A DNA stretch of 64,000 nt from Parasedimentitalea maritima. Lineage in GTDB: Bacteria; Pseudomonadota; Alphaproteobacteria; Rhodobacterales; Rhodobacteraceae. Positions 18,348 through 35,170 of the stretch are shown piece by piece. The notes under the pieces were generated by a model. The model worked only from the letters and a program-made list of their open reading frames with translations. It was not told where the DNA came from and did not search any database. The stretch's first letter is position 1; each line of letters begins with the position of its first letter. The translations under genes and the position numbers were made by a program. Where the stretch lies: contig NZ_VAUA01000002.1 in NCBI RefSeq assembly GCF_005771405.1, forward strand, positions 434,001 to 498,000. Direction: 5' to 3'.

Positions 18348-19493
18348 TCACCCGGCACCCTTCGGTTTCGGTAACGTGCCGTTTTTGTATGCGCTCCAAT
18401 CTTCGATCTCGGGATAGAACTTTTTGCGCCAAGCCCGGACGCGCGGGTTGAACACTCGGCGCCACAGAGGCGGGATCATTGCCAGTGCTGTCATCGGCGG
18501 ATAACCAGTTGGCAACATCGGAACTTCGCTTTCGTCATAGACCTGCAACAGCGGAAAACGCCGCATTGGATGAACATGGTGGTCAGCATGACGTTGCAGA
18601 TTGATCAACAGCAACCCTGAAACACGGTGCGCTGAATCCCAGGAATGATGCGGCCGTACAGGCTCATATTTTCCATCACCCAGATGTTTGCGCGTCAGCC
18701 CATAGTGTTCGACATAGTTGGTCAGCTCCAACTGCCAAATCGCAACAAAAGCCTGAAAAACAAACAGACCCACACCGGCCCAACCGCCAATACCAAATGC
18801 GATGGCTAGAAACGTTGACTGTAGCCCGAGATATTTCCAAATAGGATTGGACAGATGCCATGGAGACCGTTTGCGCCGGGCCAACATCGCCTTTTCCGCA
18901 CGCCATGCCGATCCGAAGCCTGTCAGCAAGATACGCGCGTAGGCCCGGTGAAACCCCTCGTTATAGCGGGCTGTCACAGTGTCACGCGGTGTGCCAACAT
19001 AAGGATGATGGACCAACAGGTGTTCGGTTCGGAAATGCCCATATAGCACCAGTGCCATCAACAGGTCCCCCAACCCGCGCTCGACCCGGTTGGATTTGTG
19101 GAACAGCTCATGTGCATAGACTATGCCAACGGTGCCAGTGGTGACGCCAATGCCAAACATGATGCCCAGCGTTTCCAATGTTGAATACTGGCCGACGCGC
19201 GTAAGGTAATAGAGCGTTCCAAATACCAAGGCGAATTGTACTGGAAACCAAATGTAGGTGAGCAAACGAAACCAAAACAATTCGGCGTCCGGGGTCTCTG
19301 GGTCTGGGTTGCGCAGGTCCTTACCCACCACAGCATCCAGCAAAGGCATCAGCACCCAGCCATAGATTGGGATCAGAAGGATGGTCCACCCCCCAAACAG
19401 AACCGCCAGAACCACCAGTGGAACAAAGGTGAGTGTCATCCAATAGGGCCAGGCGTTTAGCCGTCCCTTGCCATCAGTTGTGGACAGTGTCAT
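18348..19493 (-). CDS. alkB: Alkane 1-monooxygenase (AlkB-type di-iron membrane hydroxylase)
   Basis: A 381-residue integral membrane non-haem di-iron monooxygenase of usual AlkB length. It hydroxylates the terminal carbon of medium-chain alkanes using O2 and electrons from rubredoxin. The histidine boxes are HELFH (residues 128-132), EHLLVHH (157-163), NYVEHYGL and LQRHADHHVHP. Six or so hydrophobic segments are visible. It overlaps the upstream P450 gene by 4 bases (ATGA) and has AAGGAG before the ATG. No rubredoxin or rubredoxin reductase gene is adjacent, so electron donors must be encoded elsewhere. Fatty-acid or xylene hydroxylases share the fold but the LQRHxDHH box favours AlkB. Confidence 0.9.
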   Translation of the reverse strand: MTLSTTDGKGRLNAWPYWMTLTFVPLVVLAVLFGGWTILLIPIYGWVLMPLLDAVVGKDLRNPDPETPDAELFWFRLLTYIWFPVQFALVFGTLYYLTRVGQYSTLETLGIMFGIGVTTGTVGIVYAHELFHKSNRVERGLGDLLMALVLYGHFRTEHLLVHHPYVGTPRDTVTARYNEGFHRAYARILLTGFGSAWRAEKAMLARRKRSPWHLSNPIWKYLGLQSTFLAIAFGIGGWAGVGLFVFQAFVAIWQLELTNYVEHYGLTRKHLGDGKYEPVRPHHSWDSAHRVSGLLLINLQRHADHHVHPMRRFPLLQVYDESEVPMLPTGYPPMTALAMIPPLWRRVFNPRVRAWRKKFYPEIEDWSAYKNGTLPKPKGAG

Positions 19494-20992
19494 GTGCCGC
19501 TCTCCTTGTTGATCTTTTCCGCCCGTCGGGTCAGGCGCAACCGAATACCATTGGCCGAACGCACGGTAAGCTGAGCGGCAGGTATTGGCGTATCCCCCTC
19601 GACCAGCTCAAACCGATAGGCCCGCACCAGCATCGACAGAAGCAACACACCTTCCGCCATCGCAAAGGCCGAACCGGGGCAAACCCTGGGGCCTGCTGAA
19701 AACGGGATGTAGGCCGACCGCATGCATTCCTTGCCGTTAGGGGTATCAAACCTGCCCGGATCAAATTCATCAGGTCGCTCCCACAGCCGTTCATGACGAT
19801 GCAGATGCCATGGGCTAAGAATAACCTGAGAGCCGCGCTTGACTTCACGGCCGCGAAACTGTTCCGGACAGGCCGCTTCGCGGACATACATCGGCACTGG
19901 GGGGTACAGACGCATTGCTTCGCGAAAGACAGAACGAGAATGGCGGAGTTTGGACAGCGTTGAGAAATAAATTTTCTCGGGCTCCATCGTCTCAAGTGCC
20001 TCCGCCGCCAGTTTATTCTGCCACTCAGGATAGCGCGCTAACAGATACAGCGCCCAGGCCAGTGCAGCAGCCGAGGTTTCATGCCCGGCAAGAAAGAAAA
20101 TCGCGACTTGGTCAATCATCTCTTCGGTTTCAAACACCTTTCCCGTTTCGGGGTCCGGGGTGGTCATGATCTTGGTTGCCAAGTCATCTGGGGCGGTACC
20201 ATCGGCAATGTCGCGGGCACGCTGCTGGGTCAGTTGTCCAATCAGCGCACGGATTCTACGGGCCGTTTCCTTGGTTTCGCGTGAATGGAAACGAGGAAAC
20301 CACTGCGGCAGCGGTAGTATCGCCGCAACATTGGCAACCGGTTGTGCCGCCTGATGCTGGCGAAAGGCCTCAAACGCTGCGTTTGCAACTTCATGTTCAA
20401 TGGGCACCGAAAACAAGGTGCGAAAGATCACATCCATTGCGAGGTGACTGGCCTGAGCCTCAATTTCCACCGGGGAGCCATCCGCCAAGGGCTTCAGCCG
20501 TTGAACAGCCGCAACGCCGCTGTCCCACATCGACGGGAACACCTTGCGAATTCGACCTCCTTCAAATGCGGGATCTATGATCCGACGCTGACGCGCCCAC
20601 GTCTCACCATTCGAAATGAAAACCGATTCCCCCAACAGCGGCTTCAAACCAACCCGGATACGTTCGGATTTTGGAAAATCTTGCGCACGTTGTTTCAGAA
20701 CAAGATCGACCAATGCCGGATCATTGCACAAGTATGATCGAAAGAACGGCGTTCGCATTTCAGCCATCCAGGCGCGATACAAATGCGCAGGCTGGGACGA
20801 CAGAATGTCCTTTTTGAATTGCCGGAAATAGGTCCAGAGAGAGACCCGACCCTGTCGTGACGCAGGCTTAGGCGGTACATCTGGCAGTCCGATCAAATCA
20901 TGGTCCAGCAATTCGGTTTCCCCGATTGTGCAAATGGTCAAAGTTGGACGATTTTCCCTTGGCCTCTGGGTTTTGTAATTGACGATCATCAA
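19490..20992 (-). CDS. Cytochrome P450
   Basis: A 500-residue soluble bacterial P450. The I-helix motif is AGHETSAAAL, the K-helix ExxR is in REAMRLYPP, and the haem loop FSAGPRVCPG places the proximal cysteine at about residue 438. There is no N-terminal membrane anchor. It is coupled to alkB by a 4-base overlap, so the two may act on the same hydrophobic substrates, for example alkanes and their oxidation products. No ferredoxin or reductase is adjacent. The start is uncertain: ATGs at 20992 and 20989 lack a strong ribosome-binding site. The P450 family number cannot be given without a search. Confidence 0.88.
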   Translation of the reverse strand: MMIVNYKTQRPRENRPTLTICTIGETELLDHDLIGLPDVPPKPASRQGRVSLWTYFRQFKKDILSSQPAHLYRAWMAEMRTPFFRSYLCNDPALVDLVLKQRAQDFPKSERIRVGLKPLLGESVFISNGETWARQRRIIDPAFEGGRIRKVFPSMWDSGVAAVQRLKPLADGSPVEIEAQASHLAMDVIFRTLFSVPIEHEVANAAFEAFRQHQAAQPVANVAAILPLPQWFPRFHSRETKETARRIRALIGQLTQQRARDIADGTAPDDLATKIMTTPDPETGKVFETEEMIDQVAIFFLAGHETSAAALAWALYLLARYPEWQNKLAAEALETMEPEKIYFSTLSKLRHSRSVFREAMRLYPPVPMYVREAACPEQFRGREVKRGSQVILSPWHLHRHERLWERPDEFDPGRFDTPNGKECMRSAYIPFSAGPRVCPGSAFAMAEGVLLLSMLVRAYRFELVEGDTPIPAAQLTVRSANGIRLRLTRRAEKINKESGT

Positions 20993-21830: not shown

Positions 21831-22225
21831 GCCGTTGACCTCGGGCGTTTGGTTGCTCACTGGAGGAGATTATGGTCGGCATTGGAAATTCACACCCTCA
21901 ATCCCAACATTCAATCTTCCTTGAAATCGTTCTGTTTACCTAACTGTACTTCGGTATTTCAAAGGGACGCGAGCCAAATCTATTTCCGCTAGCCTGATTA
22001 GTGTCGAACCGCTCTGCAAGTATTTAAAAGAACCACGTTTCGTCATATTGAAGCGCAACAATTCTCCCCTTTCTCCTCAAGAATATTCCCCCTGACGCCG
22101 CTGCAATTCCAGCTCAACAGGTAGACCAAATCGACGCGGCATACAAAAAGTCATCGCAAAAAGAGTTGACTCAAACGTGTGATTTCTATTAGTTCGGTAG
22201 GTAGACGAACTAATAGGGGCCCACT
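21831..22225. other. 395-bp intergenic region before the ROK operon
   Basis: No gene is seen. The right end carries the ROK operator inverted repeat and a GTG start with AGGGG. The left part shows no clear terminator after the FNR-like gene. The sequence from about 21960 to 22200 is A/T-rich, as expected for a promoter. Confidence 0.5.
22186..22216. promoter_or_regulatory. Perfect inverted repeat, candidate ROK operator
   Basis: CTATTAGTTCG (22186-22196) and CGAACTAATAG (22206-22216) are perfect 11-base arms around a 9-base spacer. The right arm ends in the ribosome-binding site of the ROK gene, 9 bases before its GTG. Occupancy would block transcription or translation of the operon, suggesting autorepression relieved by the substrate. 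Low G+C and no T run argue against a terminator. Confidence 0.75.
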
Positions 22226-23440
22226 GTGCTTGATCAATCCAACCTATCGCGACGCATGACACTCAGCTCGGTTGTTCAGGCCATCACATCCTATGGCCCC
22301 ATATCGCGCGCAAGCGTCGCCAAGATGACGGGCCTATCCAAACAAACAGTTTCAGAGATTGTGTCCTCGCTTGAAAAAGATGGTTGGGTACAAACCGTTG
22401 GGCGTACCGAAGGAAATGTCGGTCGCCGTGCGGTGGTGTATGAAATTGTGCCCGAGGCCGCGCTGGTTGCCAGTGTCGATCTGGGTGGAACCAAAGTACG
22501 CACCGCCCTATGTGACCTCACCGGCAAAGTTGTTGCTGAAATGGTTGAGCCCACCACTCAAAGCGGTGGTGAAGCTGTCGTTGATCAAATCGGGCGTCTT
22601 ATTCTTGAAACCGCCACATCTCATAATATCGAACAAGAAAAAATTCGGGTTGCAGTTGTTGGAGTACCCGGTGTCCCCGAGGCTGAAACAGGCCATGTAA
22701 AAATGGCCCCCAATATCAAGGGCGTCGATGCGGTCAATTTCCCCGAACTGTTGAATGAACGGCTTGGCATTGAGGTCCTTGTCGAGAACGATGTGAATCT
22801 GGCGGCTCTGGGTGAACACTGGATGACCCATCAGGGCGACAAAGATGATCTGGTCTATCTATCAATTGGCACAGGAATTGGTGCTGGTGTTGTCATCGGC
22901 GGCAAATTGGTACGCGGCGCTTCTGGCGCAGCAGGCGAGGTCGGATTTTTGCCTTTTGGAGCTGATCCGTTTGAGGAAGACAGCAAAACAACAGGTGCTC
23001 TGGAACGAGTTTCAGCAACGCAGGCGATCACCAGCCACTATTTCCAACTAACCGGCACCAACAAAAACGTCCCTGCTGTATTTGACGCGGCCCTCGCTGG
23101 TGATGCCCACGCAAAACAGGTTCTGGAAACCGTTGCCAGCTATATCGCACGCGCTGTGGTTGCAATCGCATCGGTAATTGATCCAGCCTGTGTTATCATC
23201 GGCGGCTCCATCGGCGCACGCGAAGAGCTGGTCAGCCTGATCAAGCCAGAAATTGACCGCTGCTTCCCCCGCTCTATTTCGGTTGAGCCTTCTATTCTGG
23301 GCAATCACGCCGCCCTTGCAGGCGGCACCTCCATTGCCCTGTCGCGCCTTCACATTGCCCTGTTTTCAGGCGGTCTTCCGGGTGCACAAATTGTTGTTCC
23401 ACCACCCCATGTCAAAACCTACCTTGAAGACGTGACATGA
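22226..23440 (+). CDS. ROK-family transcriptional repressor
   Basis: A 404-residue protein. The N-terminal winged HTH (about residues 10-65, with ISRASVAKMTGLSKQTVSEI) is followed by a ROK sugar-kinase-like domain with DLGGTKVR and SIGTGIGAGVVIGGK. The ROK zinc motif (CxCGxxGC) and the GH pair of active ROK kinases are missing: the place reads GEVGFLPFGADPFEED. It is thus likely a pure sensor rather than a kinase. It starts with GTG behind AGGGG and overlaps the M20 gene by 4 bases. It probably represses the whole downstream operon, with an amino-sugar or its phosphate as inducer; the ligand is inference. Confidence 0.87.
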   Translation: MLDQSNLSRRMTLSSVVQAITSYGPISRASVAKMTGLSKQTVSEIVSSLEKDGWVQTVGRTEGNVGRRAVVYEIVPEAALVASVDLGGTKVRTALCDLTGKVVAEMVEPTTQSGGEAVVDQIGRLILETATSHNIEQEKIRVAVVGVPGVPEAETGHVKMAPNIKGVDAVNFPELLNERLGIEVLVENDVNLAALGEHWMTHQGDKDDLVYLSIGTGIGAGVVIGGKLVRGASGAAGEVGFLPFGADPFEEDSKTTGALERVSATQAITSHYFQLTGTNKNVPAVFDAALAGDAHAKQVLETVASYIARAVVAIASVIDPACVIIGGSIGAREELVSLIKPEIDRCFPRSISVEPSILGNHAALAGGTSIALSRLHIALFSGGLPGAQIVVPPPHVKTYLEDVT

Positions 23441-24702
23441 TCGACGACACCATAAATGCCAAGTTACGAGCAGCCCAAGACAATCTTGCAGATGTTGAAT
23501 TGCTGCAGGAAGCAATAGGCAAGCAAAGCATAACAGGCTCCGAATCCAACTTTGTTGAGCATCTGCAAGACGTCTTGGCGATTATTGGGCTAGAACCTAT
23601 CACTGGCGAATTCCTGCCGGGCCGCCCAAACATTTGGGGCCAGCGCAAAGGGGCCGAACCCGGACCCAACCTGATGTTTGTCGGCCATACAGATACTGTA
23701 AACGTACAGGGCTGGTCCGAAGCCTGGGCTGGTCAAGTTCGCGAGAACCCATTTGGCGCGGTCGAAATTGACGGTGAAATCTGGGGGCGCGGTGCCTGTG
23801 ATCTCAAAGCTGGGATCTGCGCCTCACTGGCGGCGCTGCGTTTGCTGGATGCTGCCAATATCAAACTACGCGGGCAAGTTTCATTTGCCTTTATCGGTGA
23901 CGAAGAAAGTGGCGAACCCGGACTGGGTGTCAGCGCCGGTGCTAAAGATCTTGTGCAACGGGTCAAACAGGGTGAAATCTCGACACCCGATTTTGCGATC
24001 TATGTCGAGCCAACCAAGCTCAATGTCTACACCGCACAAATTGGCTTTTTCATCGCCGATATCAAAGTAACCGGAAAGTCAGCCTATTTTGGCACCCCTG
24101 AGGATGGGGTTGATGCCTTGAAAGCGAGCCACAAAATTCTGTCCGCCCTTTGGCAACACGAAGAAGAGCTTACGTCTGGGCCAGCACATGATTTTGTCGG
24201 CCCCTCTGGCATATTGGTGACTGACATCAAAGGCGGCGGATACATCGCCGTCCCCGGTCAGTGTTCGTTGTCGGTCATTCGCAAACTACGCCCTGGTGAA
24301 GACCTGGACAAATCCGTGGCCCAGTTTGAAGAGGCTGTAAACTCAGCAGACTTAAGCGATGGGATTTCAGTAGAAATAGAATATCCCGCCGGCCGGGATC
24401 ATCCGTTTGGTGGGTCCCCTGTTGAAATCGACCCAAACCATGACGCCGCGCGTTTGCTGGCCGAATGCGTCCAACAAGAGCACCCTAGTGGAGGCCAGAT
24501 TGGTGGTGCCCCCTACTGGTCAGAAGCACCGTTTCTGGTGAACGCAATAGGCTGCCCAACCGTCTACTGCGCACCCGGCGACATCAGTGTCGCCCACACA
24601 TTCAATGAACGCGTCAATGTCAAAGAGTATCTGGCAGCAGTCCGTTCATTTGCCCTGTTCATGGTTGCCTACTGTGGCACCGAAACAGGGAAAGAAGAAT
24701 AA
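23437..24702 (+). CDS. M20-family metallo-amidohydrolase (ArgE/DapE-like)
   Basis: A 421-residue M20 hydrolase. Metal and catalytic motifs: GHTDTVN (metal His and catalytic Asp), GRGACDLKAG (bridging Asp), and GDEESGEPG (general-base Glu pair), with the final histidine in VAHTFNE. Members use one or two Zn ions to cut N-acyl or peptide-type amide bonds in the cytoplasm. It is coupled to the ROK gene and lies upstream of a sugar-type ABC importer, so it may deacylate or split the imported compound. No signal peptide is seen. ArgE, DapE and carboxypeptidase G2-like proteins share these motifs, so the substrate is open. Confidence 0.86.
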   Translation: MIDDTINAKLRAAQDNLADVELLQEAIGKQSITGSESNFVEHLQDVLAIIGLEPITGEFLPGRPNIWGQRKGAEPGPNLMFVGHTDTVNVQGWSEAWAGQVRENPFGAVEIDGEIWGRGACDLKAGICASLAALRLLDAANIKLRGQVSFAFIGDEESGEPGLGVSAGAKDLVQRVKQGEISTPDFAIYVEPTKLNVYTAQIGFFIADIKVTGKSAYFGTPEDGVDALKASHKILSALWQHEEELTSGPAHDFVGPSGILVTDIKGGGYIAVPGQCSLSVIRKLRPGEDLDKSVAQFEEAVNSADLSDGISVEIEYPAGRDHPFGGSPVEIDPNHDAARLLAECVQQEHPSGGQIGGAPYWSEAPFLVNAIGCPTVYCAPGDISVAHTFNERVNVKEYLAAVRSFALFMVAYCGTETGKEE

Positions 24703-24716
24703 CAAGGAGGAACTCA

Positions 24717-25772
24717 ATGAAACATCTAACAAAAACCTGCCTGTCTGCTGCGGTCTTTGCGCTGGCCACTCTGCCAGCATTGGCCCAAACCATGGGACCA
24801 CAGGGCGAAACTGCCACCCCATCCAATGTCGTTGCCGTTGCAGACGCCGATCTCGAAGCCGTGCGCGCGGGCAATCACACTGCCGCCCTGTTGTGGCACG
24901 ATCAGTCCGATTTTGTGAACGCCGTGACCGCCGGAGCCACAGCCGAATTTGAACGCCTGAACATCAAAGTTGTTGCCACCACAAGCGCCGGATTTGATGC
25001 CGCCAAACAGCGTAGTGATATTGAAACTGTTCTGGCTAAAAATCCCAGCATCATCCTGTCACTTCCTCTTGACCCTGTAACTTCGGCTGCCGCTTTTGAA
25101 GAAGCCAAGTCCGAAGGCATCAAACTGGTGTTTCTGTCAAACCTGCCCTCAGGATATGAGCACCCTGCCGACTATGCGGCTATTGTGACCGATGATTTGT
25201 TCCAAATGGGCAAACAGGCGGCGGATGCGTTGGCCAAATCAATGGGTGGGACCGGCACGGTAGGCTGGATCTATCACGATGCCAGCTATTATGTCACCAA
25301 TCAGCGCGACAACGCGTTTAAAACAACCATTGAAAACGACTATCCAAACATCTCGATCGTTGCCGAACAGGGGATCACAGACCCTGCCCGCGCCGAAGAA
25401 ATTGCCAATGCCATGTTGCTGCGCAACCCGGACCTTGGCGGCATTTACGTCACCTGGGCTGGCCCAGCCGAAGGTGTACTGGCCGCTCTGCGGGCAAATG
25501 GCAACAAAACCACCAAGATCGTAACGCTGGATCTGTCCGAACCCGTTGCGCTGGACATGGTGCGGGGCGGTAACGTTGCGGCCATCATTGCAGATGAGGC
25601 TTATGAACTGGGTCGTGCAATGGCTGCTGCCGCTGTTCTGGACCTGTTGGACCAAGACGTGCCCCCATTTGTGGTGGCTCCTGCTGTCACGGTTACAGCT
25701 GACAACGTCGCCGAAGGCTGGATGCAGTCCCTGCACATCAACGCCCCGGCAAGCCTGACAACCAGCAACTAA
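24717..25772 (+). CDS. Sugar ABC transporter periplasmic binding protein (RbsB-like), copy 1
   Basis: A 351-residue type I binding protein of the ribose/LacI-like class. The signal peptide (MKHLTKT, hydrophobic core, cleavage after ALPALAQ) ends near residue 23. The mature part includes SLPLDPVTSAAAFEEAK and the hinge region GIYVTWAGPAEGVLAAL. AAGGAGG lies before the ATG. It is followed by a strong stem-loop and then by a close paralogue (copy 2) before the single permease gene. The ligand is unknown; operon content suggests an amino-sugar derivative. Confidence 0.88.
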   Translation: MKHLTKTCLSAAVFALATLPALAQTMGPQGETATPSNVVAVADADLEAVRAGNHTAALLWHDQSDFVNAVTAGATAEFERLNIKVVATTSAGFDAAKQRSDIETVLAKNPSIILSLPLDPVTSAAAFEEAKSEGIKLVFLSNLPSGYEHPADYAAIVTDDLFQMGKQAADALAKSMGGTGTVGWIYHDASYYVTNQRDNAFKTTIENDYPNISIVAEQGITDPARAEEIANAMLLRNPDLGGIYVTWAGPAEGVLAALRANGNKTTKIVTLDLSEPVALDMVRGGNVAAIIADEAYELGRAMAAAAVLDLLDQDVPPFVVAPAVTVTADNVAEGWMQSLHINAPASLTTSN

Positions 25773-25783
25773 GTCAAGAAATT

Positions 25784-25814
25784 GCCCAGCAGAAAAAGTC
25801 GCGTTCTGCTGGGC
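25784..25814 (+). terminator. Intercistronic stem-loop between the two binding-protein genes
   Basis: GCCCAGCAGAA (25784-25794) pairs perfectly with TTCTGCTGGGC (25804-25814) around a 9-base loop. No T tract follows, so it is more likely an mRNA-stabilising or attenuating hairpin that raises expression of the upstream binding protein than a full terminator. Confidence 0.6.
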
Positions 25815-25899
25815 GGTTGCCCCGTTCCCACAAGGCAAAATTAGCAGCGTTCGCGCGCTGCCCCTGCGGCATACCAAATTGTTCAGGAGGAAGTAAATA

Positions 25900-26952
25900 A
25901 TGAACCCGTTTATTAAACTGGCCGCTATTTCTGTATTGTCAGCTGGCCCAACACTTGCACTTGCCGAAAACCCTGCCACCGTTGGCCCAAATGGCGAGGC
26001 CCCCACCCCGGTGTCTCAGCTGGTACTGACAGCAGAAGACGAAGCCAAAATCAAGGCTGGCGGCCATTCCGCCGCTCTGGTCTGGCACGAGTTATATGAC
26101 TGGTCCAATTCAGTAGCCCGTGGTGCCAAAGACGAATTTGCGCGCCTCGGTATCGAAGTCGTTGCCGAAACCGATGCAGGATTTGATTCCAGCCGTCAGA
26201 AATCCGATGTAGAAACTGTGATGGCGCGGGAACCCTCGATCATCGTGTCCCTTCCAATTGATCCCACCACCGCAGCTGGCGTTTATGGAATTGCCCGGGA
26301 TGCAGGGGTGAAGCTGGTGTTTGTCGACAATGCCGTCAACGGTTTCACCCATGGTGAGGACTATGTGACTGTGGTGTCTGCCGACCTGTTCCAGATCGGC
26401 AATAAAGCCGCCGTTGCCTTGGCCGAGTCGATGGGGGGCAAAGGCGAAGTTGGTTACATGTACCACGACGCGGACTTCCCGGTGACCAACCAACGGGATG
26501 GCGCCTTTAAGTGGACCATCGAAAACAAGTACCCTGACATCAAGATTGTCACCGAAAGTGGTATGACGGATCCGGCCAATGCAGAAGACATCGCCCGTGG
26601 CATGCTGTCCCGCAACCCCGAACTTGACGGTATCTACACTCCCTGGGCCGAGCCCGCGCTTGGGGTTCTCTCCGTTCTGCGCCAGCAAGGCAATGCTGAC
26701 GCCAAGGTCGTCACCATTGATTTGAATGAACCGGCTGCTCTGGACATGGTGGGAGGTGGCAACATCGCCGCAATCATTGCGGATGAGGCCTATAGCATTG
26801 GTGTTTACGCCGCCCGCGCCGCCGCCGCCGGATTGCTCGACAAGCCGGTTGACCCGTTCCTTGTGGTGGATGCTTTGACCATTGGGCCAAACAATGTGGC
26901 AGATGGCTGGATGAAATCCCTGCACTCCGAAGCACCAAAAAGCCTGCGCTGA
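25900..26952 (+). CDS. Sugar ABC transporter periplasmic binding protein (RbsB-like), copy 2
   Basis: A 350-residue paralogue of the preceding binding protein: about half of the residues agree along the whole mature chain by eye, with identical segments such as VTNQRD and AAIIADEAY. The signal peptide ends after LALA (about residue 23). The ligand-pocket regions differ (WHELYDWSN against WHDQSDFVN; TPWAEPALGV against VTWAGPAEGV), so the two may bind related but distinct compounds or the same compound with different affinity. AGGAGG precedes the ATG. It is followed by a GC-rich hairpin and the permease gene. Confidence 0.88.
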   Translation: MNPFIKLAAISVLSAGPTLALAENPATVGPNGEAPTPVSQLVLTAEDEAKIKAGGHSAALVWHELYDWSNSVARGAKDEFARLGIEVVAETDAGFDSSRQKSDVETVMAREPSIIVSLPIDPTTAAGVYGIARDAGVKLVFVDNAVNGFTHGEDYVTVVSADLFQIGNKAAVALAESMGGKGEVGYMYHDADFPVTNQRDGAFKWTIENKYPDIKIVTESGMTDPANAEDIARGMLSRNPELDGIYTPWAEPALGVLSVLRQQGNADAKVVTIDLNEPAALDMVGGGNIAAIIADEAYSIGVYAARAAAAGLLDKPVDPFLVVDALTIGPNNVADGWMKSLHSEAPKSLR

Positions 26953-26966
26953 ACACACTCTCTCTG

Positions 26967-26992
26967 CGAGGGGCGTGCGCGCCCCTCGTTCT
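26967..26992 (+). terminator. GC-rich hairpin between binding protein 2 and the permease
   Basis: CGAGGGGCG (26967-26975) pairs with CGCCCCTCG (26980-26988) around a TGCG tetraloop, followed by TTCTT. It probably acts as a partial terminator that lowers expression of the permease and downstream genes relative to the binding proteins. Confidence 0.7.
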
Positions 26993-27019
26993 TGCAAACA
27001 CCGACTCTGAAAGACTGAT

Positions 27020-27973
27020 ATGACCCGCGTCACCTCACGCCTGAACGGATTGGACTTCCAGCAAGCGGTTGTCTATTTCGGCTTCCTTGCCATTTTCCTG
27101 TTCTTCGCCGTCACCCTCTATGATGATGGGTTTCTGACCCAGCGAAATCTGACAAACATCGTGCTGCAAACAGCACCTGCCACGATCATGGCTGTTGGAC
27201 TGGTCTTTGCCCTGTCCGCAGGCGAAATCGATCTCAGTTTCGGTTCCATCGTCGCAGTTTCTGCCCTGTCCTGTGCAGTCATCCTTCAGGACTACCCACT
27301 GCCCTTCGGCGTTGCCGTAGGTCTGGGCGTTGGTATGGGCATCGGGGCCTTCAACGGAGTCCTGATTGCCTATTTGAAACTGCCCTCGTTTCTGGTCACT
27401 TTGGCCACCATGGGTCTGTTTGCAGGCATCGCCCGCTCAATGACCAACCTGCGGTCCATTCCAGTGATGAACGACACGTTCACAGGTATCTTTGGCTCCG
27501 GCAAATTGTTCTCGGTCCCTTCACTGGTGATCTGGACAGTGATCGGCGTTGCAGTTGGCCATCTGATTTATCGCCATACCCGATTTGGTGCCCATGTTCT
27601 GGCCACCGGAGACAATCCCCGCGCCGCACAGGTGTCAGGCATCAAAGTACCGCGCGTGCGTCTGTACGTCATGATGATCTGCGGCGGTTGTGCCGGTCTG
27701 GCCGGGTTACTCTATGCCGGGCGCCTTCAGGCCGCGAAATACACCCTGGGCGAAAGCGATCTTATGACCGTTATCGCCGCCGTAATCGTAGGTGGCACTG
27801 CCCTAAACGGAGGAAAAGGCTCGGTTATCGGCGCTCTACTCGGCTCACTCCTGATGGGGATGCTCAACAATGGGCTAATCCTGATGAACCTCAAGGTCTC
27901 CGATCAGATGATCGTTCGAGGCCTCATCATTCTCGTCGCCGTCGCTCTGTCGCTGCGCGACAGCAACCGCTAA
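27020..27973 (+). CDS. Sugar ABC transporter permease (RbsC-like)
   Basis: A 317-residue permease of the BPD_transp_2 / RbsC class with eight or more hydrophobic segments. Features include LSAGEIDLSFGSIVAVSA and FNGVLIAYLKLPSFLVTLATMG-type regions of ribose permeases, with the ATPase-contacting loop ATGDNPRAAQVSGI. It is the only permease in the operon, so it probably homodimerises as in RbsC systems. It is served by the two upstream binding proteins and the ATPase at 29196. The start ATG at 27020 gives the usual short cytoplasmic N-terminus. Confidence 0.88.
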   Translation: MTRVTSRLNGLDFQQAVVYFGFLAIFLFFAVTLYDDGFLTQRNLTNIVLQTAPATIMAVGLVFALSAGEIDLSFGSIVAVSALSCAVILQDYPLPFGVAVGLGVGMGIGAFNGVLIAYLKLPSFLVTLATMGLFAGIARSMTNLRSIPVMNDTFTGIFGSGKLFSVPSLVIWTVIGVAVGHLIYRHTRFGAHVLATGDNPRAAQVSGIKVPRVRLYVMMICGGCAGLAGLLYAGRLQAAKYTLGESDLMTVIAAVIVGGTALNGGKGSVIGALLGSLLMGMLNNGLILMNLKVSDQMIVRGLIILVAVALSLRDSNR

Positions 27974-27987
27974 GAAAGGAGCAGGAA

Positions 27988-29199
27988 ATGCTTCTCGACA
28001 CTCTCATACGCCGCAACCCAGCTTTTATCGAAGCTGCCATGGAGCTGCATCAACAAGGTAAGATCCCGGCCAACTCATATGTGCTTGACCTCGACACCGT
28101 TGAACGCAACGCCAAAACCTTTTCTGAGACCGCAACCAAACTAGGGCTTAAAACCTTTGCCATGACCAAACAGGTCGCCCGGCATTCTGGGTTTTGTCAG
28201 GCCTTGATCCGTGGCGGCATTGCGCGGTCCGTTGCCGTCGACATGGATTGTGCCGTCGCCTGCCATCGCGCGGGGTTAAAAACCGGCCACCTTGGTCACC
28301 TGGTACAAGTACCGCGCGGCGGCGTAGACTTTGCCGCCAGCCAGCTCAAACCGGACTACTGGACCGTGTTTAGCCACGACAAGGCAAAGGAAGCAGCGGC
28401 AGCAGCGGCCAAGGCCGGTCGCGTTCAGAACATTTTGGCCCGCATCCAAACGCAGGGCGATACCTTCTATCGTGGTCACGAGGGCGGATTTTCTGCCGAA
28501 GATATCTGTGAGGTCGCAGATCAGATCGATGCGCTGGAGGGCGCGCGTTTTGCGGGGATCACCACGTTTCCGGCCCTGTTGTTTGATCTGGAAAGCCGCA
28601 GCGTCAAACCAACACCCAATCTGGACACCCTGAAACGAGCGGCAGCTGCGCTTGCTGCGGCAGGGCGCACCGACATTGAAATCAACGCACCCGGCACCAA
28701 TTCGGCGGCCGTCCTGCCTGCCCTTGCTGCGGCAGGCGCCACCCAATGTGAACCCGGCAATGCGCTGCATGGCACCACGCCGCTGCACGCAATGGAGGAT
28801 CTACCTGAAGAGCCGGCGGTTTTGTACCTGTCAGAGGTTTCGCATCAACACGGCGGCAATGCTTTTTGCTTTGGCGGCGGGCTATATATTGATCCGGTGT
28901 TTCCGAAATATGATGTGAAGGCGCTTGTATCCTCGCAACCAACCAGCGCCCGCAAAGATCTGGCCAGCGTTGAAATCCCTGACTATTCGGCCATCGACTA
29001 TTACGGCATGATCGACGCAACTGGGGATGTGAAACCCAAAACCGGCGACACCGTTGTCTTTGGCTTTCGCGGTCAAGCCTTTGTCACCCGCGCCAATGTG
29101 GTTGGCGTTTCGGGCGTTTCCAGCGGAAACCCGCAGGTCACCACCATCGAAAATATCTTTGGACAGGCCGTTGACTGGCCAGAAAAGGCTTTGTCATGA
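27988..29199 (+). CDS. YhfX-like PLP protein (alanine racemase N-terminal-type barrel)
   Basis: A 403-residue protein from the ATG at 27988, which has AAGGAGCAGGAA upstream; the same frame is open 100 codons further up but that part is permease DNA in another frame. It resembles E. coli YhfX over its length: NPAFIEAAMELHQQGKIP, YVLDLDTVERNAKTF, the PLP-lysine candidate in AMTKQVAR, and GHLVQVPRGG. The family has an alanine-racemase-like PLP barrel and no settled function. It sits between permease and ATPase, so it should act on the imported compound or its amino-acid part. D-threonine-aldolase-like enzymes are an alternative reading. Confidence 0.8.
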   Translation: MLLDTLIRRNPAFIEAAMELHQQGKIPANSYVLDLDTVERNAKTFSETATKLGLKTFAMTKQVARHSGFCQALIRGGIARSVAVDMDCAVACHRAGLKTGHLGHLVQVPRGGVDFAASQLKPDYWTVFSHDKAKEAAAAAAKAGRVQNILARIQTQGDTFYRGHEGGFSAEDICEVADQIDALEGARFAGITTFPALLFDLESRSVKPTPNLDTLKRAAAALAAAGRTDIEINAPGTNSAAVLPALAAAGATQCEPGNALHGTTPLHAMEDLPEEPAVLYLSEVSHQHGGNAFCFGGGLYIDPVFPKYDVKALVSSQPTSARKDLASVEIPDYSAIDYYGMIDATGDVKPKTGDTVVFGFRGQAFVTRANVVGVSGVSSGNPQVTTIENIFGQAVDWPEKALS

Positions 29200-29936
29200 C
29201 TGCTGAACAAAACGTGTTGTCCCTGACCAATATTCACAAGGCATTTGGCGGTGTTGTCGCTATTCAAGACTTTTCTCTGAACCTGAAGGCAGGCGAAGTG
29301 GTTGCGCTGGTTGGAGACAACGGCGCAGGCAAATCCACCCTGATCAAGATCGTGTCCGGGGTCTACACCCCTACATCGGGATCGATCGAGTTGGACGGCG
29401 AAGAAACATCCTTCAGCGATGCCAGTTCTGCCCGCAGCAAGGGTATCGAAGTGGTCTATCAGGACTTGGCTCTGGCAGATCAACAGCCGGTATTCATGAA
29501 CATGTTTCTGGGTCGTGAGCTAACCAAACCACCGTTTGGCTTGTTGGACAAGGACCGCATGCGACGTGAGTCACAAGAGCTGGTGGACGAGTTGGATGTG
29601 CGCATTCCTTCAGCAAGCTCGACCATCAGCCAGCTGAGTGGTGGCCAGCGGCAGGGCATTGCTATTGCCCGAGCCACCCATTGGGCCAGCAAGCTGATCC
29701 TGCTGGACGAACCCACCGCTGCACTTGGCGTCGCGGAAACCGCCCGGGTTGAGGGCCTGATCGAGAATCTCAAGAAAAAGAACCTCGCCATTTTGATCAT
29801 CAGCCACAGCCTGGATCAGGTGTTCCGCCTGTCCGACCGGATTTGCGTGCTGCGTCGTGGTCAACAAATCGGCATTCGAGAAACCGCAAAAACCGACAAA
29901 AACGAAATAGTCTCAATGATTACCGGAGTCGCCTGA
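29196..29936 (+). CDS. Sugar ABC transporter ATP-binding protein
   Basis: A 246-residue single-domain ATPase. Walker A is GDNGAGKST (near residue 38), the signature LSGGQRQG, Walker B LILLDEPTAAL, and the switch histidine is in IISHSLDQVF. Unlike RbsA/MglA it carries one nucleotide-binding domain, so it would act as a homodimer, as FrcA-like proteins do. It overlaps the YhfX-like gene by 4 bases and is followed after 1 base by the SIS gene. It drives the importer with the RbsC-like permease. Confidence 0.9.
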   Translation: MTAEQNVLSLTNIHKAFGGVVAIQDFSLNLKAGEVVALVGDNGAGKSTLIKIVSGVYTPTSGSIELDGEETSFSDASSARSKGIEVVYQDLALADQQPVFMNMFLGRELTKPPFGLLDKDRMRRESQELVDELDVRIPSASSTISQLSGGQRQGIAIARATHWASKLILLDEPTAALGVAETARVEGLIENLKKKNLAILIISHSLDQVFRLSDRICVLRRGQQIGIRETAKTDKNEIVSMITGVA

Positions 29937-29937
29937 T

Positions 29938-30975
29938 ATGGATACGAAAATAATCGGCACCATAATGGCACATGAAGTGGCTGAGATTCCGGAGGTCCTG
30001 CACCGGCAGGTCCAACAAGGACTGGACACCTATCTTCTGGCTGGCCAGCAGGCAGCCCGAACAAACCCCCGTGGTTTTGTGACCTGTGCACGCGGGACAT
30101 CCGATCATGCTGCAACTTTCTTCAAATATGTGATGGAAACCCGGACAGGACTGCCGGTGACCTCTATTGGGCCATCAATTGCCTCGGTCTACAAAACACA
30201 GTTGAAATTGCAGGATCTCATTTGCCTAACAATTTCGCAATCGGGGGGCAGCCCCGACCTGGTTGCCTTACAAGCGGCAGCAAAACAAGGTGGCGCGCAA
30301 ACGCTGGCGCTTTTGAACGAAGCAGACAGCCCCGTTGGCCGATCTGCCGACACTGTTTTGGACGTTCTTGCCGGGCCAGAAAAAGCGGTTGCTGCAACTA
30401 AGTCGTTTGTCAGCACCCTGTTTGCCATCCTTGGTTTTGCTGCTGGCTTTACCGATGACACCGAGTTGGAAACCGCCCTGCGCAGTTTTCCTGATGTCTC
30501 CAAACTCGCCTTGAACAAAGACTGGAGCAAAGCCCAACTGTCACTGGCCCGCGCTGGATCCGTGTTTACGGTTGGTCGTGGTCCCGGTCTGGCTGTTGCT
30601 GCTGAAGCAGCGCTGAAACTGAAAGAAACCTGTCGGATTCACGCCGAGGTGTTCTCAGCCGCCGAGCTTCTTCACGGACCTGTTGTCTTAGCTGACAACC
30701 GGTTTGCGAGTCTGGTTTTTGATAGCCAAGACGAAACACAAGAGTCAATTCGGGCGGTAATCCAAACCATGGCCGAGCGTGAAGCCGCAGCATTTGTGGT
30801 GACCCCTCTTGCAGACAGCCCCGACCATCTGCATGTTCCAGATGTAAATCACCCGTTGTTGCAACCACTGGTCCAGATTATTGGATGCTACAAATTCGTA
30901 GAAAAACTGGCCCGCAATCTTGGTGAGAACGCTGATGCGCCAAGTGGCTTGAACAAGGTCACCGTGACCGTCTGA
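29938..30975 (+). CDS. SIS-domain sugar isomerase/deaminase (NagB-II/GlmS C-half-like)
   Basis: A 345-residue double SIS protein of the type found in the isomerase half of GlmS and in AgaS, NagB-II and FrlB. The first SIS domain contains ARGTSDHAATFFKY and ISQSGGSPDLV (sugar-phosphate loop), the second has RGPGLAVAAEAALKLKET and AELLHGP. The N-terminal segment MAHEVAEIPEVL is typical of stand-alone deaminases. It would isomerise or deaminate an amino-sugar phosphate or split a sugar-amine conjugate phosphate in the cytoplasm. No sugar kinase is in the operon. It is the last gene of the ROK operon. Confidence 0.85.
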   Translation: MDTKIIGTIMAHEVAEIPEVLHRQVQQGLDTYLLAGQQAARTNPRGFVTCARGTSDHAATFFKYVMETRTGLPVTSIGPSIASVYKTQLKLQDLICLTISQSGGSPDLVALQAAAKQGGAQTLALLNEADSPVGRSADTVLDVLAGPEKAVAATKSFVSTLFAILGFAAGFTDDTELETALRSFPDVSKLALNKDWSKAQLSLARAGSVFTVGRGPGLAVAAEAALKLKETCRIHAEVFSAAELLHGPVVLADNRFASLVFDSQDETQESIRAVIQTMAEREAAAFVVTPLADSPDHLHVPDVNHPLLQPLVQIIGCYKFVEKLARNLGENADAPSGLNKVTVTV

Positions 30976-31256: not shown

Positions 31257-31991
31257 ATGCCGGGCAAAGTTGCGGTTGTTACAGGAGCAGGTGGCGGAAT
31301 GGGGCGCGCGATTTGCCTCAAACTTGTGCAGGATGGGCTGACCGTGGTCGGACTGGATGTATCCGCTGAAAGGCTCGAAGAAACGTCGACGGCCATCGGC
31401 GATGGTTTTCACAGCTTGGCCGTTGACCTGACAGATGCCACCGCAGTTGCAGAGGCCTTCGCAAACATTAAGTCCCAGCACGGCGGGTTGGATGCATTGG
31501 TCAACAATGCCGGAACCTGCCTGATGTCCGATTTCCCGATTATCCCAGCCTCAGAGCTCGACAGTCAAATGGCGATAAACTTCAATTCGGCATTTTATTG
31601 TTGCCAGCAAGCGGTCCCCTTGATGATGGACCGTCCCGGCGTTCGCAAGATCGTCAATATCTCATCCAACGGCGCCTACAACTTTGATGTTTTTGACCCA
31701 CCACATTATCGCGCCAGCAAAGCCGCGATGGACACTTTGACAAAAGATCTTGCGCGGCGGTATGCAGCAGAAAAAATCGCCGTTAATTCGATTGCTCCAG
31801 CCATGACCACCACGCCGTTGTTCGATGTATTAACGGATGAGGTCCTACAACAGGCAATATCGGCAATGCCACACGGACGGGCGATGGATCCGTCTGAAAT
31901 TGCCAGTTGGGTTGCCTTCCTGATCTCACCTGCCGGGGATATCTCCAGCGGCAACATCATCATTCTCAATCAAGGGCGGGATGTGCGTTAG
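31257..31991 (+). CDS. Short-chain dehydrogenase/reductase (SDR)
   Basis: A 244-residue classical SDR from the ATG at 31257; the frame is open for 80 more codons upstream but those do not resemble SDR sequence. The cofactor motif is TGAGGGMGRAI, then NNAGTC, ISSNGAYN and the catalytic pair in YRASKAA. Asp in GLDVSA suggests NAD. The last four bases overlap the end of the convergent MBL-fold gene. It follows the sugar operon after 281 bases and might oxidise or reduce a product of it, but a separate role is equally possible. Confidence 0.83.
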   Translation: MPGKVAVVTGAGGGMGRAICLKLVQDGLTVVGLDVSAERLEETSTAIGDGFHSLAVDLTDATAVAEAFANIKSQHGGLDALVNNAGTCLMSDFPIIPASELDSQMAINFNSAFYCCQQAVPLMMDRPGVRKIVNISSNGAYNFDVFDPPHYRASKAAMDTLTKDLARRYAAEKIAVNSIAPAMTTTPLFDVLTDEVLQQAISAMPHGRAMDPSEIASWVAFLISPAGDISSGNIIILNQGRDVR

Positions 31992-32746
31992 GTATATGCT
32001 TCGGGCGATTTTTTGAGTTTTGGCCATTGCTCAGGCGAATGCCCATAGATCACAAACGCGCCGGTTTCTTTGGCCAGGTTCATCAAGCGATCTGCGCTGG
32101 CAATAGCTTTGGCCTCGTCCCAGGAACCGGCAAACCTCTCGTCAATTTCGGCGGGGCGCGAGATCGCGTCACTGGTCAGCAAAACCATCCCGGTCTCTGG
32201 CAGTTCCAACATCAGCGCCAACTGGCCCGGCGCATGGCCCGGTGAGGTGAGAACACGAAACCCAGGGCCGACCTCAACGTCGTCTTCGATCACCAGATAC
32301 TCTTGATCGGGCCATTCAAGCGGTTGGACATCGCCCCAGTAAAGCGGTTTAGGCAAACGCCGCTCTGCGCCTGATACCAAAATTGGGGTCTGGGGAAAAT
32401 CACCAAGACCGCCAACATGGTCAATATGGGTGTGTGTCAGAACATGCAGATCGATCTGATCCGGTTTGATCCCCGCCAAGGCCAGCTGAGCCGCAGGCAT
32501 ATTGACCATCCCACACTCCAGAACTTCGCCAAACTCATACAGCCTGTCCTGTTCAGTGGCTGCGGCTTTGTCCTCGGCATATTTTTGCGGAAAGCCGGTA
32601 TCGACCAGAATGGATTCACCCGCGTCTGTCTGAATCAGAAACCCGAAAATGCCGATAACTCTGCCGTTTGCGTGCACTTTGAACAGCCCGTAATCCAGAA
32701 CATGCAACGAGATCGGCCGCCCTTTCAAATAACCTTTGGCTTGCAT
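31988..32746 (-). CDS. Metallo-beta-lactamase-fold hydrolase, lactonase-like
   Basis: A 252-residue MBL-fold protein. The metal motif is THTHIDHVGGLG, with the later histidine in SPGHAPGQLAL and a final one in YGHSPEQWP. The N-terminal part (LDYGLFKVH, VDTGFP) resembles the N-acyl-homoserine lactonase (AttM/BlcC) group. Members open lactones or cut related esters with two metal ions. GAGGGAATGTA precedes the ATG. It is divergent from the aminotransferase gene and convergent, with a 4-base overlap of stops, with the SDR gene. Whether it degrades quorum signals or a metabolic lactone is not decidable here. Confidence 0.8.
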   Translation of the reverse strand: MQAKGYLKGRPISLHVLDYGLFKVHANGRVIGIFGFLIQTDAGESILVDTGFPQKYAEDKAAATEQDRLYEFGEVLECGMVNMPAAQLALAGIKPDQIDLHVLTHTHIDHVGGLGDFPQTPILVSGAERRLPKPLYWGDVQPLEWPDQEYLVIEDDVEVGPGFRVLTSPGHAPGQLALMLELPETGMVLLTSDAISRPAEIDERFAGSWDEAKAIASADRLMNLAKETGAFVIYGHSPEQWPKLKKSPEAYT

Positions 32747-32786
32747 TACATTCCCTCATAACTGCTCCAACCATCGCGGGTCCCTG

Positions 32787-33914
32787 ATGAAAGTCAAGAT
32801 TCATACCCTGTTCCAGTATCTGCTTGATACAACCGAGACCGATCCAGAAGCCTTTATAGGGTTCTCGCTGGCCGAGTCGCCAAAACTGGGTGATTTTCTG
32901 GACGATCTTGACCCTGAAATGTCACTTGATTGGAACCTAAAATCCTTTCGGGGGCTGCCATCCCTGCGCCAGCGTGTCATTGATCAGGCTGGTTTGGCCA
33001 AGAATTGTACAGCGGATGATGTGTTGATCACTGCTGGCGCAGCAGAGGCCAATTACCTGGCGTTCATGCAGCTTGTTGAAGCCGGGGATGAGATTGTCAC
33101 AGAAACACCTGGATGGCCGCAGATAGAAGTTTTGGCCAAGGCCAGACAGGCAACTGTCAAATTGGTTGAAAGAAATGAGGCCGCAGGCTGGGCTTTACCG
33201 GTGGATCAGCTGGAAAACCTGGTCACCGATAAAACCAAGCTGATTTTTCTGACCAACCCAAACAACCCAACCGGCAAATTGTTAAGCAAAGAAGACCTGC
33301 AGCGGATTGCGCAGATTGCTGACAAGGTCGGAGCTTGGTTGATCGTTGACGAGGTTTATGCTGGCCTGGAATGGACAACCGACAGAGCGCCGTCGATTGC
33401 GGGGATTTATGAGCGCGGCATTACTACAGGCAGCGTGTCCAAGGCCTTGGGGTTGCGGGGGTTGCGCACCGGTTGGCTGATCTGCCGTGACAAAAACATG
33501 GTGATGGATGCGATTATCCTGCGGGAAAACAGCAGTGAAATTATGAATATCATGGGGGAAGTGATCGCTGAAGTTGCTTTGGGCCCAGATCGACTAAGCC
33601 AGGCTTTGGCCAATGCGCGACGTGATAGCATCGCTACGCTTGAGTACTTGGACACATACATCGCCGCCGAGCCCAAGCTGTCCTGGCACCGGCCCGAGGC
33701 CGGATTAATAGGTTTGGCACGACTGCCAGAGGGAATAGATAGCGATATCTTTGCAAAACGCCTGCTGGCTGACCCATATAAAACATTTTTACTGCCTGGC
33801 AGTGCGTACGGGCTGTCGAACCACATTCGACTAGGAGTTGGCGGCGGTGCCTCTGCAAAATTGGATGTTGGTCTTACCCGGATGTCACAACTATTGGCCG
33901 AATGGGGCACCTAG
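32787..33914 (+). CDS. Class I/II PLP-dependent aminotransferase
   Basis: A 375-residue fold-type I aminotransferase from the ATG at 32787; the open frame starts at 32736 but the extra 17 residues overlap the divergent gene. Motifs: TNPNNPTGK (substrate/PLP region), VDEVYAGLE (Asp to pyridine N), and SVSKALGLRGLRTGW with the Schiff-base lysine; the C-terminal arginine lies in HIRLGVGGG. It transfers an amino group between an amino acid and a 2-oxo acid. Its neighbours give no specific pathway; it precedes the recombinase remnant. Confidence 0.84.
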   Translation: MKVKIHTLFQYLLDTTETDPEAFIGFSLAESPKLGDFLDDLDPEMSLDWNLKSFRGLPSLRQRVIDQAGLAKNCTADDVLITAGAAEANYLAFMQLVEAGDEIVTETPGWPQIEVLAKARQATVKLVERNEAAGWALPVDQLENLVTDKTKLIFLTNPNNPTGKLLSKEDLQRIAQIADKVGAWLIVDEVYAGLEWTTDRAPSIAGIYERGITTGSVSKALGLRGLRTGWLICRDKNMVMDAIILRENSSEIMNIMGEVIAEVALGPDRLSQALANARRDSIATLEYLDTYIAAEPKLSWHRPEAGLIGLARLPEGIDSDIFAKRLLADPYKTFLLPGSAYGLSNHIRLGVGGGASAKLDVGLTRMSQLLAEWGT

Positions 33915-34037: not shown

Positions 34038-35170
34038 GAAGCCGAGAAGCTTGTCGGAAAGACGCCTTACGAAGTCCTCAGGGAAAAGCTATAGTCAACA
34101 AACGGGATGTCCCACGGGTAACCGCACCTTACATGGCAGTAGAAGAGTCGGAAGCCTCAGTAATTCGCTTGATGTTCGATCTTGCACTCTATGGTGATGG
34201 CCAAACCGGTCCACTGGGACTGAAGGAAATCGTTAAGTGGCTGAATGAGAGAGGTTATCGCACGCGCAAAGGCACCAAATGGGGCATAAATGCCGTTCAT
34301 CGCTACTTCCAAAAAACCACGGTCGCTGGAGAGTTCATTTTCAACAGCAGCCAGGACGGCGGCAAAGCAATCACTATCCCAGTTCCTCCGATCATCGAAA
34401 GATCCAAGTTTGATCTGGTTAGAGCAACCATGGAAGCCAGAGCCCCAAGTCAAACACCTCCTCGAGTCGTAACAGGCGACGTTTTGTTAACAGGGCTCGC
34501 CAAATGCTCGAACTGTGGCAACGAGATGACAATGGGGGCTGGAAATGGAAACGGTGGCCGGTACCACTACTACCAGTGCGCGGCACAAATGCGCCAAGGC
34601 AAGACAGCCTGCGAGGGGCACCGATTCCCGATGAAAGCTCTCGACCAATTGATTGTAGATCAGGCTCTGGCTGACCTGTTCAGCGCAGAAAAAATCAGTG
34701 CCCTCATGGAGCCGATGCTCAGTCGGCAGTCTCAAAGCAAAGCTGAAATTGCCAAGCGCCTTGCAGATCGAGAAACTGAAGTCCTGGATGCCGAGAAGAG
34801 CATCGATAACTTGTACGACCTTGTTACCACTAATCTGGTGCACTCATCGGATCCCGACTTTCGGCAACGGTGCGAGCGGGCACAGGAAAACATGCCCGCG
34901 TCAAGAAAGAGCGGGACCAGGTTGCCGCTGAGGTCGCGCCGAAAGCCCGGCTGACTAACGAAAAGGTATCGCGGTTTGTGTCTTCAATGCATGCGCTGCT
35001 GACTAACGAGCCAGTGGCCGTTCGGAAAGGGTACCTACGATCTGTCATAGACAGGATCGATGTCGGTGAGAATTGCATCCAAATTCGAGGGCGACGCGCA
35101 TCAATCGAGCAGGCGGTGCTGTCGGGCGAGGTTCACCCCTCAGCAGTTCCCACTTTTGTTCGTGAATGGC
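34038..35170 (+). pseudogene. Degraded large serine recombinase next to tRNA-Ser
   Basis: The frame from 34038 holds the Recombinase domain (EASVIRLMFDLALYG, KEIVKWLNERGYRTRKG) and the zinc-ribbon (CSNCGNEM and later QCAAQMRQGKTAC), then a coiled coil. It ends at a stop at 34952-34954, but the coiled coil and C-terminal region continue in another frame (VKKERDQVAAEVAPKARLTN, LRSVIDRIDVG), so a single-base frameshift lies near 34890-34900. The whole catalytic resolvase domain (Ser nucleophile) is missing upstream. The second frame stays open through the tRNA to 35274. It looks like the relic of an element that used the tRNA 3' end as attachment site. Confidence 0.8.

Follow-up and report, generated by a model that had tools for sequence, protein, structure and literature searches.

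A conserved operon of Parasedimentitalea maritima encoding ROK, M20, YhfX, and SIS proteins and its possible role in amino-sugar utilization

A 64,000-nucleotide stretch of the Parasedimentitalea maritima genome (NZ_VAUA01000002.1, positions 434,001–498,000, forward strand; hereafter the window, to which coordinates refer) contains a self-contained operon of eight genes, a core of six of which is found in many marine and soil bacteria. They encode a ROK regulator, an M20 metallo-amidohydrolase, an ATP-binding cassette (ABC) importer with two periplasmic binding proteins (SBP1 and SBP2), a YhfX-family pyridoxal phosphate (PLP) protein, and a double-SIS protein. By sequence comparison, we established the gene content and order, the operator, the conservation, and the enzyme families with their metal, PLP, and phosphate motifs. 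We tentatively propose that the operon is a dedicated system by which the cell imports and degrades an N-acylated amino sugar, or a monosaccharide-size, amide-bearing sugar derivative. The end-point of the pathway is probably an amino-sugar 6-phosphate. The order of the earlier steps, in which M20 would act before YhfX and YhfX would work on a sugar-bearing amine, is the weaker half of the proposal.

The structure of YhfX has been solved, and a literature search in titles and the openings of abstracts found no functional study of YhfX or of the operon. The operon supplies YhfX with a tight, widely conserved set of partners. Their predicted chemistry, namely amide hydrolysis, a PLP step, and deamination of an amino-sugar phosphate, makes the function of YhfX directly testable. 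The operon may also reveal a nitrogen-sugar source for roseobacters and rhizobia.

Organization and conservation of the operon

The list of open reading frames (ORFs) of the window contains eight ORFs running in one direction on the + strand at 22226–30975, and their products were assigned to families by Pfam and NCBIfam profile searches. These data confirmed the first-pass annotation, which had described one continuous run of eight genes of these families with short gaps or overlaps; the start that it gave, 22186, is that of a palindrome. The gene of the ROK-family transcriptional regulator (22226–23440) overlaps that of the M20 enzyme (23437–24702) by 4 bases. The genes of SBP1 (24717–25772), SBP2 (25900–26952), the permease (27020–27973), and YhfX (27988–29199) follow after gaps of 14, 127, 67, and 14 bases, respectively. 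The YhfX gene overlaps the ATPase gene (29196–29936) by 4 bases, and a single base separates the latter from the SIS gene (29938–30975).

A scan of GTDB species genomes yielded 270 relatives of YhfX. The best 80 (66–99% identity) were fetched, and 64 of these loci had sufficient flank (full loci). According to the record titles, the fetched loci belong to Rhodobacteraceae-type bacteria, Rhizobiales-type bacteria, and Thalassospira. The order ROK-M20-SBP(s)-permease-YhfX-ATPase is kept in 63 of the 64 full loci, and the co-occurrence of these genes is therefore beyond chance. In the one deviating locus (L075), ROK and M20 are missing, and a stop occurs in the SIS stretch. The linkage of YhfX, M20, and SIS in other genomes, on which the first-pass annotation had made its interpretation depend, is strongly conserved for YhfX and M20, but for SIS it holds only in part, with SIS in 20 full loci, NagB in two, and neither in 42. 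Two SBPs are encoded in 33 full loci and a single SBP in 31. The operon of Ruegeria sp. TM1040 has one SBP and no adjacent SIS.

YhfX occurs at an identity of at least 67% in 15 of 394 genomes of the family. The 81 further matching genomes gave weak matches (35 bits or less), and the one of these matches that was scanned (L024) is BhcC. Among genomes of the class, 4 of 385 contain PF21279, and among those of the phylum, 11 of 398. An alphaproteobacterium from a different family (L139 of G735) likewise has the seven-gene order including SIS. In a reverse test from M20 against PLSDB plasmids, all 12 records holding an M20 with more than 54% identity also held YhfX, and the next best M20 had 31% identity among the 40 of 81 records listed.

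Several loci vary in layout. In a same-genus genome, the last 34 codons of SBP2 are left between SBP1 and the permease (L039:9853–9954), an apparent loss of SBP2. On pNGR234b of Sinorhizobium fredii NGR234 (L193), the operon is truncated and begins inside the permease (C-terminal 118 residues), with YhfX, ATPase, and SIS kept; ROK, M20, and SBP matches were not found in this 17-kb stretch. In the Mesorhizobium-type loci L108 (gene at L108:3014–4042), L118, L119, and L121, a D-2-hydroxyacid dehydrogenase-family gene, so labeled from a family scan of the L108 copy only, lies ~180–240 bases before ROK on the operon strand. A YhfX relative of G615 (L140:8942–10150, 52% identity) stands outside such an operon, seemingly alone beside a Lon-like protease gene.

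An operator-like inverted repeat, CTATTAGTTCG-N9-CGAACTAATAG (22186–22216, no strand assigned), with perfect 11-base arms is located 9 bases 5′ of the ROK start. Its core with 8-base arms (22189–22213, no mismatch) is the sole match in the window at three or fewer mismatches, with 0.04 expected. The pattern GTTCG-N6..11-CGAA was found upstream of ROK in 68 of the 72 loci with upstream sequence, 29–77 bases before the ROK match, and in 0.5% of shuffles; L073, L084, L086, and L113 do not have it in the strict form.

The full palindrome was searched for with up to two mismatches in the P. maritima genome and in 16 other genomes or records (15 alphaproteobacterial genomes and the record of the actinobacterium Embleya). 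In P. maritima, one perfect site is present, at the operon, plus one asymmetric two-mismatch site (C17:300745), and a second site with 0–1 mismatches was not found. Each of the 15 alphaproteobacterial genomes has one site with 0–1 mismatches, which is at the operon in the four compared by coordinates (G013, G093, L061, and L105). G013 has one further two-mismatch site. Such two-mismatch sites carry little meaning because a reversed control pattern gave 0–3 matches per genome at the same threshold. These results suggest that the regulon consists of a single operon. A kinase in the ROK regulon was sought through these operator searches with up to two mismatches and was not identified. In the Embleya record, a perfect TTAGTTCG-N9-CGAACTAA palindrome occurs at W01:C1:832468–832492, ~2 Mb from the YhfX locus.

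Properties of the encoded proteins

The double-SIS protein is NagB-II-like and is predicted to be of the glucosamine-6-phosphate deaminase type. It scored 285.6 bits on the NagB-II model NF046059 (below the equivalog cut-off of 430), 171.9 bits on the GlmS subfamily model, and 25.8 bits on the FrlB model NF008481 (below the cut-off of 430). The NF046059 cut-off was reached in 0 of 32 and 0 of 198 genomes searched. Two NagB-II homologues near kinase genes of P. maritima, L138 and L137, scored 289.2 and 292.1 bits, and even the L138 copy, which lies beside NagA, is under the cut-off. Therefore, the low score does not set the operon SIS apart from these homologues. The SQSG loop, KxxE, HGP, and the C-terminal K are invariant in all 19 aligned sequences. 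We take SQSG to be the phosphate loop and the others to be NagB-type catalytic residues. Because these elements are kept, action of SIS on an unphosphorylated substrate, an option raised in the first-pass annotation, is unlikely.

In three loci (L069, L073, and L086), a NagB-type gene occupies the SIS slot, ~40 bases after the ATPase gene. The NagB of L073 passes TIGR00502 (263.7 vs 236.9 bits). In the carriers G013, G014, and G029, the operon SIS is the sole NagB-II-like match in the genome. NagB-I, ROK kinase, Glk, NagK, NagA, MurQ-like, and APC queries were also run at E ≤ 1e-6 against 14 + 80 homologous loci plus another 16 loci. NagB-I was found in three loci, and a Glk match of 29% in L097. 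Besides itself, the ROK query hit the ROK regulators and some further ROK sites. NagK, NagA, and MurQ-like queries had no match at this threshold in any of these loci. A gene that follows the L091 operon and had been considered a NagA candidate reads as PhnM-like by eye and was dropped.

The operon is comparable to N-acetylglucosamine-type operons with NagB-II, and the P. maritima genome contains two further amino-sugar operons (L137 and L138) in which SIS is of the same NagB-II-like group. L137 encodes Glk, a NagB-II-like SIS, and ROK, and L138 encodes a NagK-like protein, a NagB-II-like SIS, NagA, and a single-SIS protein that reads as MurQ-like. However, L137 and L138 own a kinase (Glk and NagK-like, respectively), L138 also has NagA, and their importers read as CUT1, whereas the operon studied here has neither kinase nor NagA and combines a CUT2 importer with M20 and YhfX.

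The M20 enzyme is of the ArgE/DapE type according to profile searches, structure, and alignment. It scored 170.5 bits on TIGR01910 (ArgE/DapE deacylase), under the subfamily cut-off of 217.6, and it is under all curated cut-offs among the 25 of 50 families listed. The closest structural neighbours of its model (predicted local distance difference test score, pLDDT, 92) are DapE (Z 43.5, root mean square deviation (rmsd) 2.6, 379 aligned) and ArgE (Z 41.2, rmsd 3.2, 366 aligned). In an alignment of 73 orthologues (that of the window and 72 of 76 M20-bearing loci, with three dropped for coverage and one for a stop), H84, D86, D122, E156, E157, E191, and H387 are invariant. In M20 enzymes, these positions are the metal ligands and the catalytic Glu. 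The fold and all metal ligands are thus common to the ArgE/DapE deacylases. However, the place of the lid His of DapE is taken by Tyr217 (alignment to 7uoi), which is also invariant in all 73 sequences. The invariant metal site together with the replacement of the lid His suggests that M20 is an N-deacylase with altered substrate recognition.

SBP1 is a CUT2-type binding protein (Peripla_BP_4, 137.2 bits; cut-off 35.1). SBP2, assigned by Pfam, is 56% identical to SBP1 and is optional in relatives. The permease is of the CUT2/RbsC type (PF02653, 144.2 bits; cut-off 26.8). RbsB-like SBPs and an RbsC-like permease are shared with Rbs-type importers. However, the ATPase (246 amino acids) is one ABC half that matches positions 1–235 of 492 of YtfR only, unlike RbsA with its two fused halves. 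The RbsC-type importer with two binding proteins that had been recognized earlier is present here, but the second SBP is not essential in relatives, and the ATPase is a single half.

Across 77 sequences, the SBP1 segments LSN, NQRD, VTWA, TLD, and AD show little or no variation; by comparison with ribose-binding proteins, they presumably lie in the pocket. In the alignment of SBP2 with 2ioy, two positions that serve as ribose contacts in proteins of this kind are changed from Asn to Trp and from Gln to Asp, and the W and D at these places in SBP1 do not vary among all 77 sequences. Less similar SBPs were found in 24 plasmid records. All of the six inspected (41–46% identity) adjoin Gfo/Idh dehydrogenase and sugar-phosphate-isomerase-type genes, which favours a sugar-like ligand. 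The regulator carries a ROK domain (PF00480, 168.6 bits; cut-off 22.9) and an N-terminal winged helix-turn-helix (HTH_24, 26.8 bits; cut-off 21.9), the combination of a ROK transcriptional regulator. It scored 149.1 bits on the NagC model, under the cut-off of 650.

YhfX passes PF21279 for the C-terminal domain (95.3 vs 27 bits) and PF01168 Ala_racemase_N (64.4 vs 24.1 bits), and it matches 4kbx with an E value of 6.9e-79. Its AlphaFold model (pLDDT 89) has the alanine-racemase fold and is closest to 4kbx (Z 49.3, rmsd 2.1, 381 aligned), followed by D-threonine aldolase (Z 27.7), BhcC (26.7), diaminopimelate decarboxylase (26.2), and alanine racemase (25.1). Because these four enzyme classes are within 3 Z units, the fold lists do not settle the reaction. 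M59 and K61 are invariant in 25 of 25 sequences, and the lysine, which is also kept in the eight sequences printed of the tree alignment, is presumably the PLP-binding residue of the MTKQ motif. On NF045642 (D-threonine aldolase/BhcC), YhfX scored 20.2 bits, far from the cut-off of 690, whereas L024 scored 749.9. In D-threonine aldolase and BhcC, a C-terminal EHG is the metal motif. Around the invariant IDYY of YhfX, no equivalent of the DEHG stretch of BhcC (331–334 of L024) can be seen, and EH follows residue 300 in 1 of 80 YhfX sequences; hhalign covered residues 24–239 only, without a C-terminal alignment. These observations hint that YhfX is less likely to be a metal-dependent aldolase or dehydratase; it may carry out a racemase-like or other PLP reaction.

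The E. coli-type yhf operon has a YhfX in common with the present operon (~40% identity, solved as 4kbx). Its genes in E. coli are yhfZ, yhfU, yhfT, php, yhfS, yhfX, and yhfW. In Cetobacterium (annotated) and gammaproteobacterial loci (by eye), yhfX lies in a yhf operon with other genes, namely YhfT-, Php-, and phosphopentomutase-like genes, and SIS, M20, or an ABC importer was not seen adjoining it. The two YhfX clades are split by the longest internal branch of the tree. The yhf operon of Cetobacterium, a fusobacterium, additionally carries an amidase-family gene (L146:5994–7025) next to YhfX and a phosphotriesterase-related gene, which links YhfX to an amide hydrolase for a second time.

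Proposed route and alternatives

In the proposed route, the compound would enter through the CUT2 importer, served by one or two SBPs, and ROK would be released from the operator on binding the compound or a product. M20 would remove the acyl group to leave a free amine. YhfX would form a PLP Schiff base with this amine and change the amine-bearing carbon, by epimerization or a related reaction, to give a glucosamine-type sugar. A host kinase would make the 6-phosphate, from which SIS, or NagB in some relatives, would release ammonia to yield fructose-6-phosphate. A more specific version, which we regard as quite unlikely, is that YhfX of this clade is a PLP amino-sugar epimerase or mutase acting at the amine-bearing carbon of an unphosphorylated 2-amino aldose, e.g., from mannosamine to glucosamine, after M20 frees the amine. 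If true, an enzyme of the alanine-racemase fold would act on a sugar instead of an amino acid, and the amino-sugar route to which it belongs would be independent of NagA. The first-pass annotation had envisaged a substrate with both a sugar and an amide. This gains support from the ArgE/DapE-like M20 with all its metal ligands, the SBP relatives in sugar gene sets, the NagB-II-like SIS, and its replacement by NagB in three loci.

A distant locus bears on the role of YhfX. In Embleya (L145), a ROK regulator, an APC amino-acid permease (117.6 bits), YhfX (45% identity), a ROK kinase-like protein (107.8 bits, no HTH detected), and a double SIS (178.5 bits on NagB-II) are encoded in a row. M20 was not found in the fetched region, and the best match in the same record is ~0.8 Mb away (29%). 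In the unrooted tree, the longest internal branch (support 1.000) leaves the Embleya YhfX with the alphaproteobacterial sequences. This gene set is consistent with a YhfX that works directly on the sugar-bearing molecule. The earlier idea that YhfX handles the amino-acid product of M20 is weakened by this one genome and appears less likely. We infer from the same example that YhfX, the kinase, and SIS may be successive steps, with M20 needed only for an acylated import form.

Three other explanations were considered. In the form given by the first-pass annotation, the compound may join a sugar and an amino acid, so that M20 splits it, a racemase-like YhfX takes the amino acid, and SIS takes the sugar part. 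M20 most resembles N-deacylases of amino acids, YhfX most resembles PLP enzymes that use amino acids, and the Embleya permease is of the amino-acid type. However, the Embleya row, with no M20 in the fetched region, ties YhfX to sugar steps, and we consider this explanation rather unlikely. Scavenging of N-acyl (D-)amino acids, in which M20 deacylates, YhfX racemizes, and SIS or NagB is an accessory hitch-hiker, draws on the same fold neighbours, which use amino acids, and on the 42 of 64 full operons with no SIS or NagB beside them. It is unlikely: the ROK regulator and the CUT2 importer fit sugar substrates, the same slot is filled by two unrelated deaminase families, and SIS is again found with YhfX in Embleya and in the distant alphaproteobacterial locus L139. 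Amadori compounds (glycated amino acids) would require SIS to be an FrlB-like deglycase and M20 to trim a glycated dipeptide. The APC permease, kinase-like, and SIS genes of Embleya resemble the frl layout, but the SIS score is much lower on FrlB than on NagB-II, and NagB is in the SIS slot in three loci. Moreover, PLP enzymes require a primary amine, which Amadori compounds do not have. Therefore, this explanation is very improbable.

Several points weigh against the amino-sugar proposal. M20 relatives of this type use N-acyl amino acids, not sugars. That no kinase gene is present in the operon, as noted earlier, was borne out, and no kinase was identified for the pathway. The kinase-like protein of Embleya scored 74.5 bits on ROK glucokinase against a cut-off of 260; this gene and the permease gene were scanned from chosen starts inside longer ORFs, and Embleya is a single example. 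The NagB gene of L086 holds a run of N, and the L073 genome has, besides NagB, a partial NagB-II-like match (198 bits). The three NagB loci may reflect one displacement event because L069, L073, and L086 form one YhfX clade.

The deaminase could also be an accessory recruited for other reasons because most full loci have neither SIS nor NagB adjacent. In support of the amino-sugar proposal, each of the 30 genomes searched from the 42 such loci has a deaminase-type gene at another place (a NagB-II-like one in 29, at 186–359 bits, and NagB in one, at 314 bits). The matches of G1131 and G1133 are partial and weak (186–189 bits, from position 38) and may belong to another SIS family. For a rough comparison, NagB-II-like matches at E ≤ 1e-48 occur in 70 of 198 family genomes, or in 63 of ~191 others after removal of seven recognised carriers among the matches listed; this baseline takes no account of kinship beyond the family. 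Among 18 carriers whose operon includes SIS or NagB, NagA is present in 12, a NagK match in 8, and neither in 6. Since neither was shown in these six assemblies, some of which are metagenome-assembled genomes, NagA does not appear to feed the deaminase in them.

Genes flanking the operon

Downstream of the operon (31257–33914), there are genes for a short-chain dehydrogenase/reductase (SDR), an AiiA-like metallo-beta-lactamase-fold hydrolase (− strand), and a class I/II aminotransferase. They are kept in the same-genus genome, whereas the remaining 79 loci gave no match with an identity of 38% or above. A recombinase-type gene (34133–34954) encodes Recombinase and zinc-ribbon domains, with no catalytic resolvase domain match in the scanned ORF. 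On the − strand at 18348–20992, the gene of a fatty-acid-desaturase-family membrane protein (AlkB-like by eye) adjoins that of a cytochrome P450, and the two are possibly an alkane hydroxylation pair.

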